This document shows, one piece after another, positions 3,696 through 37,500 of a stretch of 64,000 nt of DNA (within the stretch, counting starts at the first letter, position 1; each line of letters begins with the position of its first letter). The DNA is from Daphnia pulex (Eukaryota > Arthropoda > Branchiopoda > Diplostraca > Daphniidae), in contig NC_060020.1 of NCBI RefSeq assembly GCF_021134715.1, positions 1,364,001 through 1,428,000 of the forward strand, in the 5' to 3' direction. The notes beneath the pieces are model-generated. The model searched no databases. It saw only the letters and a list, made by a program, of their open reading frames with translations, and had not been told where the DNA came from. The translations under genes and the position numbers were made by a program.

Positions 3696-4222
3696 TCTCA
3701 CCCAGCCTCTACTCCACTGCATGACACGTTTTACGTAAAGATCTCCGTGACCTTCGAGTGTGACTGTCCTTTCCTTCTGTAGGTTGGCTTTGCTGGGGAT
3801 GGGTCTACAACAACCAATATCAAAATGAATACCAAATGGTTAATGTAAAAGGTCTCGTTCTCACCCAACCTCTACACCATTGCATGAAAAGTTTTACATA
3901 ATGATCTCCGTGACCTTCGATTGAAGAAAATGCAAACTGGCCTTTCCTTCTTTGGGCTGACGTTTCCGGGGATGGGTCTACAACAACATCAAAATGAATA
4001 CAAAATGGTTTTGTAACAAATCCCGTTCTCACCCAACCTCTACACCGCTACATGACACGGTTTACGTAATGATCTCCGTGACCTTCGCGCGAGAAGGACA
4101 TGCAAACCTAGTGTTTCCTTCTGCAGGTTGACTTTGGGAAAGAAGGGATCGTTGTTGGGAATTGGAATGGGTCTACAACAAATATAAAAATGAATACCAA
4201 GTGGTTATGTAACACGTCTCGT
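3696..4222 (+). repeat. tandem repeat, three units of about 163-196 bp
   Basis: Units begin with TCTCACCCARCCTCTAC at 3696, 3859 and 4027; a fourth start at 4223 is cut short. Each unit contains a near-identical block around GATCTCCGTGACCTTCG, another around GGATGGGTCTACAACAA, and AAATGAATAC. The third unit has an insertion of about 28 bp (near 4130-4165). No coding frame is shared by the units, so this is a local minisatellite-like array. Confidence 0.75.
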
Positions 4223-13578: not shown

Positions 13579-14179
13579 AGCTGTAAATTTAACAGCTTGT
13601 CAATTAGACTTTGCTGCATTTAGAACAACCTGTAGAACAGTGGATAGTGGGCGTATAACTTTAAAAATAGACGTGTTACTTTACAACAATTGGTGCTAAA
13701 CATTCGAATATCTACAGCTCGTTGATAAATTTAAACTGGATCATATATCGACGATCCCGTGCAGACGAAAATTCCAAATTTTTGACGTATGACGTGAAGA
13801 ATAACGAATGCCAATTCGCCAAAAGCTTTCTTTTTCCCCTTTAATTTCGGTGCGTAGCACTATGACGGAATCGCAGTAGTAAAAAGGCGCTTAAGTATCG
13901 TACTATAGTAATTTGTATCACTAGTAAAATTGAAAATGGCTACAGTGCATCACTAGTAAAACGTATCTCAAATAATACCGTTCGGTAGAAAATCAAAATT
14001 TTCTAAATAATTTATTTATTTCATACCAACAAATGGTCAATAGTAAATTGTTTCATAATTCTTTTTCAAAATTTCGTGTGAAAAGGGAAAGTGATACAGT
14101 AGTATTTTGTAGTATAACGACAACGTCTCGTTAGTAACAGGCATCAACAGTAACACCCCCTATGATCCAGTATGATATT

Positions 14180-14369
14180 CACGGCTTCGCCGTGATGATC
14201 CCGAATGTAAATTTCACGGCTTCGCCGTGGATGATACCGAATTTAATTTCACGGCTTCGCCGTGGATAATAATAAAATTATGTTCACGGCTTCGCCGTGA
14301 TTGATAATAACTTGACGTTCACGGCTTCGCCGTGGATGATAATAATATGATGTTCACGGCTTCGCCGTG
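14180..14369. repeat. six identical 15-bp palindromes at exact 35-bp spacing
   Basis: CACGGCTTCGCCGTG occurs at 14180, 14215, 14250, 14285, 14320 and 14355, always 35 bp apart. Each folds as a 6-7 bp stem with a TTC loop. The 20-bp spacers differ but are all AT-rich and GATGATAAT-like. The array lies inside the MULE-like element, next to the TTAGG-type array. Confidence 0.95.
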
Positions 14370-14396
14370 ATTGTGATTCGGGAATTACCAATTTTA

Positions 14397-14482
14397 TAAC
14401 CTAACCTAACCTAACCAAACCTAACCTAACCTAACCTAACCTAACCTAACCTAACCTAACCTAACCTAACCTAACCTAACCT
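14397..14482. repeat. interstitial telomere-type (CCTAA)n array
   Basis: Sixteen and a partial tandem units of CTAAC (= TTAGG on the other strand) run with one variant unit (CAAAC at 14416-14420). TTAGG is the ancestral arthropod telomere repeat. The array is interstitial and lies within the MULE-like element, not at a chromosome end. Confidence 0.9.
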
Positions 14483-14991
14483 GATGTTACTTGTGAACAG
14501 AAATACTAGTGAGACAATTTATCAATGCAACGAAGTTCTTATGATACAAGAACCACAAGAACTTCGTTCTTATGAGACATTTTACTTAAAGAACTAGTTA
14601 TTAATGGGTACTGTTTCGAGTTACTAAACAATGAAATTATTAGTGATATATTTTACTAATGAAACACTTTACTTTCAACACTATATATTTATGAGCAAAA
14701 AAAAAAAAGCTGTTATTTATGGCCACCTTTACTAGTGCGATTCCGTCACTGTGAGATGCACCCTTTAATTTAATTTACTGAATAATCCGATAAATAAAAA
14801 AAAAATAACAACAAAACATTAAATAGTGCTTCATTTCAATTATTTTATTGACTCAGTAAATGATCAATTACTTTTTCCGTATGTATACAAAATGCTATTA
14901 ATAATTGCTAACAAAACAATCACTTGACAAAGTTTAAATTTCACCGATGAGACCAGCGGTTAACACTCACACCTAATTATTATTTAAAACA

Positions 14992-34516: not shown

Positions 34517-37500
34517 TTAATCTGATTTGAATCCAGTTCGGAAATTGTGCCACATTTGTAAGAATTGAACTCGCTGATTCCATACGTCTCTTTGCCCCCA
34601 ATGGCTCCAAAATCTGAGAAATTTCACCAGAGTAAGAATAATCCGATATTTATAGAAAATACTGAGGTTACTCACAGTCCAAACATGGCGCCACCCAAAT
34701 GCGCGGCATGATCAAAAAGCTTCCACCGCATTATCAAGCCTACTGTATCGAAACAAAGAAGTGCCTTCAAACCCTAGAATAATGTATTTTTGTTAGAAAA
34801 CGTTTTTCGTGGAGACAACAAAGCCAATAAAACTCACCGAATCTGCAGTGAAAGTGAATCCAGGAATAAAGGCTATTTGCAATAGGGCGTCGGGGTGTTG
34901 AGAACAAAAATAAGCAAGAACACCCATAATGGCTCCTGACTATAACATTTAAGATTATAAACAAATTTTAGGGGGCGGGAATTTTTAAAAACCGATTGAG
35001 ATTTTGACTTACCGCTCCAAGGGAAATTCCAGGCATTCGCAACGCTGTCTTGAAGATGTGACTGGCCAATGATGATATCACACCGGCAGAAAGATAGAAA
35101 GCTAGAAATTGTTCTTTACCCATATAATGAGTAGTGGCTAAGAAATAATGTTGTTAAAGGAGATTTCTTTTCATTATGTTGCTTGAGGCTCACTGTACCA
35201 TTCATGAAAGAATAAAGAACATACATGTTGGCTCCAAAATGCAAGAAAGAGTGATGAGAGAATGTTGAAAAGACCATCGGCCAGCAAACAGCTCCTTCAG
35301 GATTAAAAAAATATTAGTTATTAAAAATTTTTGATTCAACTTAATGTTAAGCTTATTACTTGCAAATGGATTAGAACAAAAATATGATATCATAAATTGT
35401 GTCAATGCTGGAATTCTCCAAGCTAACAAAACTGTTGTGTTGGCTAACAAGATGCAATAAAATAGTTTTTGCCCCTCAGTCATATTCTGGCTGTTCCACC
35501 AATGATTCATTTGGTTTCTGAAACTCCCCTGTAAGCATCAACAAATTAAATATAAGCACTAGTTTACAAATGATTGCTGGATGTCTATAACATTTTTAAT
35601 ATTATTCTGTTGTCTCTCAATCCAGTTATTAGCTTTTTGTTTGAATTGCAATGCTTTGCTCCTCATATTTTCATATTCCCAAATTGCACCCAAAGCAAAG
35701 CAGGATCCTGTAAACTTCAGAAGTAAAATAGGGTGTCCCTAAACTATGGACTTGGACAGTCCATTTTGGACTACTAAACTATGGACTTCGATCGAAAACT
35801 ATGGACTTCACCAGATGGCGCTGCCTGTCCGAAACTATGGACTTAGGGACCTAAAATATGGACTTTAACCTGCAGAAACTATGGACTCCATCAGATGGCG
35901 TTATATCCGAAACACTGGACTTGGCGTCTAAAGTATGGACTTTAAATGTATAAACTTGGCTTTTAGATCCGAATATTTTCGCTTAAGTTTTAAACGGTTA
36001 TATGAATATATCTTTTAATTAAATTTAAGCAAACCACAAATTCATTCTGAATGGTGTATTGCGAATATTAGGGGCTGTCCATATATTACGTAACGCGATG
36101 AGGGGGGGGAGGGGGTTGCAAAAAGTGTTACGAAATGTTACAGGGGGGAGGGGGGGAGTTTTGAAAACGTTACGTAGCAAGGCCGAAAATTTTTTTCAAT
36201 TAAAAAAAGTTAAAACAGTGGCAAAAATATCGATTTCCCACGCTAAAATGTAACTAAAATGGTTCTTCTGTTTAGTTTTTTGTTTCCCACGAATAAACAC
36301 AGGAAATACAATTCCCCTGAGTGCTGAGCTCGAGAAGCTAATGATCGAGCAAAGCCCTCAGGGGAATGTCGAAATAGGTTTTCAATGATTGTCGTCATTG
36401 CAGTTCAGACTTTGCGTTATGCCAGTCATCATTTAGCGAGCTCTTTTTCCAAACAAAATGGATAAAAACAAATTATATACTTCTCTTTTCCAATCGTACG
36501 TTGAGGCTCACCCTAAATACATGGCTTTAATCAAGAAAATTTTGTATTTTGTATTTTTTAATTCACCGGGGGGGGTTTTGTTTTTTGTTACGTAATTAGA
36601 AGGGGGGGTGTCTGTTTTTTTGTTACGATCCGTGACAAGGGGGGGAGGGGGGGTCCAAAAAGGTGAAAAATTGCGTTACGTAATATATGGACAGCCCCTT
36701 AATACACGATTTACAAGGTACATTTTGAACATTTCAAAAAAGGTTTTATTATTCTTGATTTGACATTTGAGAAACGAAATAAAACAAAGTCATTTAACGT
36801 TTAAATGCAAGATGAGCAATACCAGAGCACTTTTTTGCACTTGATGGCAGATTCGGGTATGTTCTCGCATTCCGGATGGAAATATTCTTTGCAAATGTTG
36901 CACTGTACCATAGCGTGAAATTTTTTAGGAAGGAGTTTATGAAATCCAAAGTCGGGCATCCGACACACACAGAAGAGGGGAATGGAAATTTGTTTCTTTG
37001 GTCTCCAATTTGAACGCGTTCGGAGTCCTTCGGTTGGAAAAGGAATGATTGCGCCGTCGGAAATGCATTTCATTAGATGGCAGCGCATTTGTGACCCATC
37101 AAACCTCAATTCAGATGGATTAAATGAAAATGCCAAGGCTGTCGCAAATGCGATGGCATATAATCCGCAACTTCCGCTTTCTTTTTGGCTTTCGCATTAC
37201 CCATTATACCCATTATTTTTATCCCTTTATTTTTTTAAGATATGGTAGTGGTTTTGTTAATAATGGAGCTATTGATCTTTTAGGTACACAGTATGAACAC
37301 ATTTCTCAAAAGAGGGAATTAATTTTAAATGTGCTGCAGAACCGCTTATGTCTCTAAAGACTGTTCTTGCCCTATACGTTGTTTTATATAAAAGCAAAAG
37401 TCAATTTAAAAAAATGAGATCTTAAGTATGAATCAAAGATATAAAAAGCATAGCTCATCATCTGATAGAAAGCTTAAACCTATTAATTAAGCAAAAAAGA

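Follow-up and report, generated by a model that had tools for sequence, protein, structure and literature searches.

Tracts of the telomere repeat that lie inside chromosomes, the interstitial telomeric sites, are often taken as traces left by the fusion of chromosomes or by the repair of breaks. One such tract is present in the window analysed here, a stretch of 64,000 nucleotides of the Daphnia pulex genome on contig C4 (NC_060020.1, positions 1,364,001 to 1,428,000), where it is enclosed, together with a series of hairpins, between two inverted repeats. How did telomere-like DNA come to be in this place, and does it have the history that is usually assumed for such sites? We addressed this question by analysing the sequence of the locus and by searching the rest of the genome (133.2 Mb in 13 contigs) for its relatives.

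The element containing the tract runs from CGGTGCGTAG to GATGCACCC over 916 bp (13848..14763, plus strand) and, as its longest stop-free stretch is 52 codons, it is non-autonomous. It has the inverted ends of about 35 bp that an earlier note on this DNA had described: the left terminal inverted repeat (TIR; 13849..13883, plus strand) is 35 nt long and 83% complementary to the 35-nt right arm (14728..14762, minus strand), and both arms contain GACGGAATCGCA. The six regular hairpins of that note are also there, as six exact copies of TTCACGGCTTCGCCGTG (CACGGCGAAGCCGTG on the opposite strand) at 14178..14369 (plus strand), with all five hairpin-to-hairpin spacings equal to 35 bp. They are followed on the same strand by a spacer (14370..14396) and by a telomere-type (CCTAA)n array of about 17 units, one of them a CCAAA variant (14397..14482); this array, put at 16 TTAGG-type units in the note, measures 17.2 copies with 97% matches, and its longest tract has 15 exact units. 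The hairpin strand folds with an energy of -43.5 kcal/mol, a value that none of 200 dinucleotide-preserving shuffles equalled (z -5.9). A second, imperfect inverted repeat, with 28-nt arms that agree at 75%, lies outside the module formed by hairpins, spacer and array (14516..14581, plus strand). Other repeats were observed elsewhere in the window, i.e., a tandem duplication of 168 bp at 3763-4087 and a short array at 35739-35945 whose repeats contain AAACTATGGACT, and proteins with YYTTKAPEYYTTTYA-like repeats were also found.

The element is not unique. A search of the whole genome with its sequence, in which only the best candidates were scored so that all copy counts are lower bounds, gave four full-length copies, i.e., that of the window and those at C9:6707169 (99% identity), C5:810236 (97%) and C10:5500044 (94%), with identities of 94-100% over the four. 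It also gave one degraded copy (L013, C10:13738402-13739168), many partial matches and four large relatives of 7.7-8.1 kb that have the same ends and are located on C10, C2, C7 and C8. Diverged versions of the ends are found at L028 (C2) and L045 (C12). A right end in common with the family, interrupted by other elements, was seen at C12:3555000-3564000 (frames judged by eye). Two pieces of the module occur without TIRs: L014 (C4:3892294-3893827), with 11 hairpins, apparently the result of a repeated 105-bp block (by eye), and L015 (C5:2189065-2190278), with hairpins but no array.

Exact duplications of 8 bp or more flank seven of the eight complete members (four small, four large), whereas random 8-mers within the window match at a rate of 4.35e-5. 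Read at 8 bp, these duplications are TTTAATTT, AAAATATT, AAAAAAAC, ATTTTGTC, ATATTTTA, CGTCATAC and ATCTATTT. The longest exact match between the flanks is 8 bp in five members (L010, L012 and the large L017, L018 and L019), and it exceeds this length in the window copy and in the large relative L020 because flank and element end have bases in common. In the remaining small copy (L011) there is no exact duplication; its flanks, TTTTTTGCA and TTTTTCGCA, agree at eight of nine positions in a 9-bp register and less well in an 8-bp register (by eye). A 9-bp duplication had been proposed for the window element, and CTTTAATTT is indeed present on both sides (the match is actually CCCTTTAATTT), but comparison with the other copies shows that the target duplication is the 8-bp TTTAATTT, at 13840..13847 on the left and at 14764..14771 on the right. 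The duplications that the note expected around further copies thus exist, with a common length of 8 bp instead of 9. With inverted ends, several copies that share them and target site duplications, the family has the attributes of a cut-and-paste TIR transposon, and the proposal that the window holds a mobile element stands.

The more specific proposal, that the element is a MULE, was not supported by the comparison, and we class the window element as a TIR transposon of unproven superfamily. Target duplications of MULEs are typically of 9 bp, with a range of 8-11 bp; those of hAT, P and Merlin elements are of 8 bp. An 8-bp duplication, the length found in the deciding copies, lies inside the MULE range and does not decide between these superfamilies. 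A true MULE (Mutator superfamily) is still a serious candidate, which in our judgement falls somewhat short of being probable. It would account for TIRs of about 35 nt that start near GGGTGC and for the capture of a host gene by the large relatives, and the genome does contain 55 matches to the MULE transposase (PF10551). However, 123.7 kb separate the nearest of these matches from the closest of 12 family loci, and in eight of the 55 MULE loci, each taken with about 1.5 kb on both sides, the 14-nt core of the TIR was matched with 3 mismatches at best. For D. pulex, hAT, P, Merlin and Helitron families are listed along with Mutator elements of the Phantom-like type (PMC2884549). A 22-base end pattern, allowed at most 3 mismatches, matches 35 places genome-wide, all of them in the nine members of the family or at one solitary end on C1, and led to no coding partner; Pfam scans of the stop-free frames of L017 and L020 (nine frames each) revealed no transposase. 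These searches could miss a partner with diverged ends or with introns. Within their reach we rejected an autonomous partner, as none was found by the TIR search or in the vicinity of a MULE domain.

The four large relatives (approximately C10:1834431-1842532, C2:9505017-9512687, C7:5734186-5741863 and C8:2453299-2461396; L017 to L020) differ from the window element in their cargo. Each of their ends is made of three alternating copies of the two terminal units of the small element: the left unit (13849..14058, plus strand; query 2-211 or 2-219, 78-82% identity) and the right one (14565..14762, minus strand; query 718-915, 81-90% identity). All four contain pieces of INTS1, in long collinear blocks that are 95-96% identical to the parent locus. 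The latter (C3:12570209-12571554) and its neighbourhood correspond to INTS1 (PF22929, E 9.8e-65; PF12432, E 4e-18). The blocks span several open frames, which suggests that the gene was captured at the DNA level, introns included. In L017, the Pfam scan of stop-free frames returned INTS1 plus weak matches below the cut-off. The interior of L020 shows frames for a retrotransposon gag and an aspartyl protease, and thus another element is nested there. Elements that carry pieces of host genes between TIRs are known as Pack-TYPE or Pack-MULE elements, and L017 to L020, which hold genomic pieces of a host gene between TIRs and are flanked by duplications, are a Pack-type capture in an animal. Among the complete members only these large relatives fit the definition. 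In contrast, the cargo of the window element is a transposon module and not a gene, and its superfamily is unproven. The hairpin-array module is absent from all four large members.

What, then, is the origin of the cargo of the small elements? The array is not private to the window element: it is part of a hairpin-plus-array module common to a Helitron family, a point that the earlier note had missed. Hairpins, spacer and CCTAA array recur in the same order near the 3' end of this family, whose loci end in CACAAG(A)TTACTAG and then T. Searches with this end gave 15 matches with at most one mismatch to one form and seven exact matches to a shorter form, which together make 20 distinct loci; this count leaves out 16 two-mismatch matches of the first form, for which a reversed control pattern gives 19, and two one-mismatch matches of the shorter form. 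Hairpins are present in 17 of the 20 loci and absent from L074, L075 and L076 (901 bp examined in each). The identity of this second carrier rests on its proteins and on its ends. Upstream of two such ends and on the same strand, a Rep domain was found at a distance of 4.2 kb (C3:3308435; end at C3:3313196, 1 mismatch) and of 5.3 kb (C3:5940274; end at C3:5934954, 2 mismatches). In L078, Rep (E 1.7e-54) is followed by a PIF1 helicase (E 8.4e-51), in separate, broken frames. The family thus has the Rep plus PIF1-type helicase of Helitrons, and it also has their 3' CTRR next to a T: CTAG|T is found without mismatch in seven of nine matches of the shorter form and in 10 of 31 of the longer one, frequencies that are biased for the T, which was part of the search pattern. 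We take this end to place the family closer to the classical Helitrons than to the Helentrons. The 3' hairpin was examined by folding two of the 18 loci: in L024 a stem of 7 bp lies some 36 nt away from the end (z -0.85), and L038 has no stable stem (z 1.1).

When the 227 bp of the hairpin region in the window element, without the CCTAA array, were compared by blastn with 15 of the 18 Helitron loci of that class, all 15 matched; the best E value per locus lies between 4e-48 and 6e-27, part of the score being supplied by the repeated hairpins. The spacer between hairpins and array has no hairpin inside, and none of 5000 shuffles reached the score of the alignment between its TIR and Helitron versions. 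When eight Helitron loci were compared with the whole element, matches were confined to its positions 313-643. The reverse order, i.e., an array followed by TTCGCCGTG within 30 bp, has no exact match genome-wide. One module is therefore carried by two transposon classes of different mechanism, and its presence in both implies that it was exchanged between unrelated classes. The module of the TIR family is about 15-25% diverged from the Helitron copies compared, so that no extant donor is identified.

Regarding the arrays of the TIR family, the note had asked whether most copies have them; each of the four full-length copies and the degraded L013 does, but none of the large members. Counted in exact units, the longest tracts of the full-length copies measure 15, 15, 12 and 25, and all six TIR-class loci with an array have a CCAAA variant close to where the array begins. 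The common variant and the differing lengths of the tracts point to one inheritance followed by changes in length. Tracts of at least six exact CCTAA units were found in six of eight TIR-class loci, a class that includes the pieces without ends, L014 and L015, and in 10 of 18 Helitron-class loci. The unit is that of the host telomere: the first 6 kb of contig C9 are perfect CCTAA, and telomerase products of Daphnia have been reported to contain the TTAGG repeat (PMC9498494).

Other interstitial arrays lie outside both families. When exact (CCTAA)6 sites were taken in coordinate order, the first 100 of 11,725 (covering C1, and C2 to 13.34 Mb) included two before the C2 end region. Both are in inverted-repeat elements built around a TTAGG array and flanked by exact 9-bp duplications: one of 741 bp at C1:3295816 (L033, duplication TTTTTATTA) and one of 317 bp at C2:8780730 (L034, duplication AAGGATACT). 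They are unrelated to the window family and their arrays lack hairpins. For a third array, 70 bp of CCTAA at C12:6129701 (L079), we had predicted beforehand a position inside a TIR element, and this prediction failed: four inverted pairs nearby are AT-rich or weak, none of them borders the array, and no duplication was found at the three pairs checked. This is possibly a site of the break-repair type. Two of the three interstitial arrays examined outside both families are thus in TIR elements, in what is a small sample and no census. The view that transposons disperse telomere-like DNA, already put forward in the note, is supported, the window family having several array-bearing copies with target duplications.

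These observations also bear on whether the arrays could be true telomeric DNA, either synthesised by telomerase or taken from a telomere at the site of a double-strand break, e.g., during gap repair after excision. The identity of the array unit with the host repeat speaks for such an origin, as do the array of L079, which has neither TIRs nor a duplication at its edges, and the arrays of L033 and L034, in TIR elements that have no hairpins. Insertions linked to telomerase at breaks have been described for vertebrate interstitial sites (PMC8537989). Yet for the window family we regard this origin as unlikely: its array is linked to hairpins and to a spacer that Helitrons also have, and a CCAAA variant present in six of six array-bearing loci indicates one inheritance and not repeated addition.

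A subtelomere offers another potential source, since a satellite of about 496 bp, with CACGGCTTCGCCGTG once per unit, is found at C3:30997-33989 (L030) and C4:1-6000 (L046) and contains the same 15-bp hairpin. In L030 it adjoins CCTAA arrays, and some 22 bp separate its last hairpin from the start of an array of the same polarity. However, the hairpins of the satellite recur every 496 bp and not every 35 bp, and its spacer between hairpin and array is not significantly similar to that of the module (scores as high were reached by 28% and 44% of shuffles). We rejected this origin for want of significant similarity in the neighbouring spacer, and we consider it highly improbable. The satellite of L030 and L046 also contains tRNA-like stretches (by eye).

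The hairpins themselves are the best conserved part of the module. We collected 122 of them in 26 loci, two of which (L023 and L026) each hold one hairpin outside arrays, by allowing at most 3 mismatches, a cut-off that favours conserved hairpins and somewhat raises the measured conservation; the regular spacing leaves few units missed. Within arrays, hairpins follow each other at 34-37 bp, except in L015 (one spacing of 32 bp) and in L040 and L042 (58, 69). Conservation is 94-100% in the 12 stem columns and 93-100% over all hairpin columns save for the centre of the loop (98, 83 and 93% for the three loop columns), against 41-81% for the columns of the spacers. All six pairs are intact in 97 of the 122 hairpins. 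The loop is TTC in 96 hairpins and TCC in 16, which correspond to GAA and GGA on the opposite strand and thus to the d(GCGNAGC) type of mini-hairpin, known to be unusually stable. No compensatory change was found among the 122 hairpins, and the pattern is thus one of sequence conservation rather than proof of structure. With bases far better conserved than those of the spacers, the hairpins give the impression of being maintained, and this pattern of substitutions suggests that they may be under selection. In the first hairpin block of L022 (C3:7664071), one hairpin has an inverted loop with its flanks in register, as expected of an inversion at the hairpin.

Such conservation could mean that hairpin array and telomere repeat form an exchangeable accessory module that aids transposons of unrelated mechanism, through the binding of proteins that would protect a transposition intermediate or prime its repair. 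The G-rich strand, which combines TTAGG units with d(GCGNAGC)-type mini-hairpins, would then bind single-strand or telomere proteins. This idea is speculative, and we think it rather improbable. If true, it would account for the conservation of stems next to drifting spacers, for the fixed order of the parts and for the presence of TTAGG arrays in other TIR elements.

We hold it to be likely that the window element is a short cut-and-paste TIR transposon carrying a module that most probably came from a Helitron, and that the array was multiplied with the element. A transposase, whose type could be that of any of the superfamilies discussed above, would recognise the inverted ends and make the 8-bp duplication on insertion. 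The module would most likely have passed from the Helitron to the TIR element, by nested insertion or by template switching during gap repair, and would then have been multiplied along with it. The length of the array, which is observed to range from 12 to 25 exact units, would have changed by slippage. The telomere-like DNA is thus spread as a hitchhiker on two transposon classes. A common third source of the module is possible.

It is above all the layout that leads us to regard the array as a Helitron microsatellite in the first place and as telomere-like DNA in the second. The Helitron family has (TTAGG)n, a spacer and repeats of 35 bp, and in its microsatellite and repeats it matches the layout published for non-autonomous Helentrons. 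Of these, the Cg_HINE elements of the oyster begin this series with a short microsatellite, continue it with central tandem repeats and close it with a 3' palindrome, and as rolling-circle elements they spread these repeats through the genome (PMC7492417). DINE-1-like elements are similar to them in layout (PMC4067079). In the account given of Cg_HINE, the microsatellite mostly has a 4-nt unit (GTCY and similar) and the module is placed in Helentrons (PMC7492417), whereas the unit found here is a telomere motif, each 35-bp repeat has a hairpin and the module is present in a TIR transposon too. Miniature elements with hitchhiking microsatellites, i.e., the lepidopteran MITEs with GTCY and those of Xenopus with tandem repeats, are likewise non-autonomous and spread a simple repeat (references cited in PMC9659126). 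In D. pulex, unlike in these MITEs, a telomere-type unit is joined to a conserved hairpin array that is common to another transposon class. Mobile elements linked with telomeric repeats are also described in Oscheius tipulae, as telomere-associated Helitrons (PMC8022731), and in rotifers, as Terminons (PMC6431247). Those are at chromosome ends, whereas the D. pulex elements are internal and have the repeat inside the element. Our search of the open-access literature found no description of a TIR transposon with the hairpin-telomere-repeat module of a Helitron.

In this genome, interstitial telomeric sites are borne by two transposon families and apparently also by two further, single TIR elements. 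Since such sites can be transposon cargo, they should not be used as marks of chromosome fusion without checking what surrounds them. The exchange of a module between a rolling-circle and a cut-and-paste element provides a concrete and testable case of modular evolution of transposons, and the conserved hairpins give a handle on its function.
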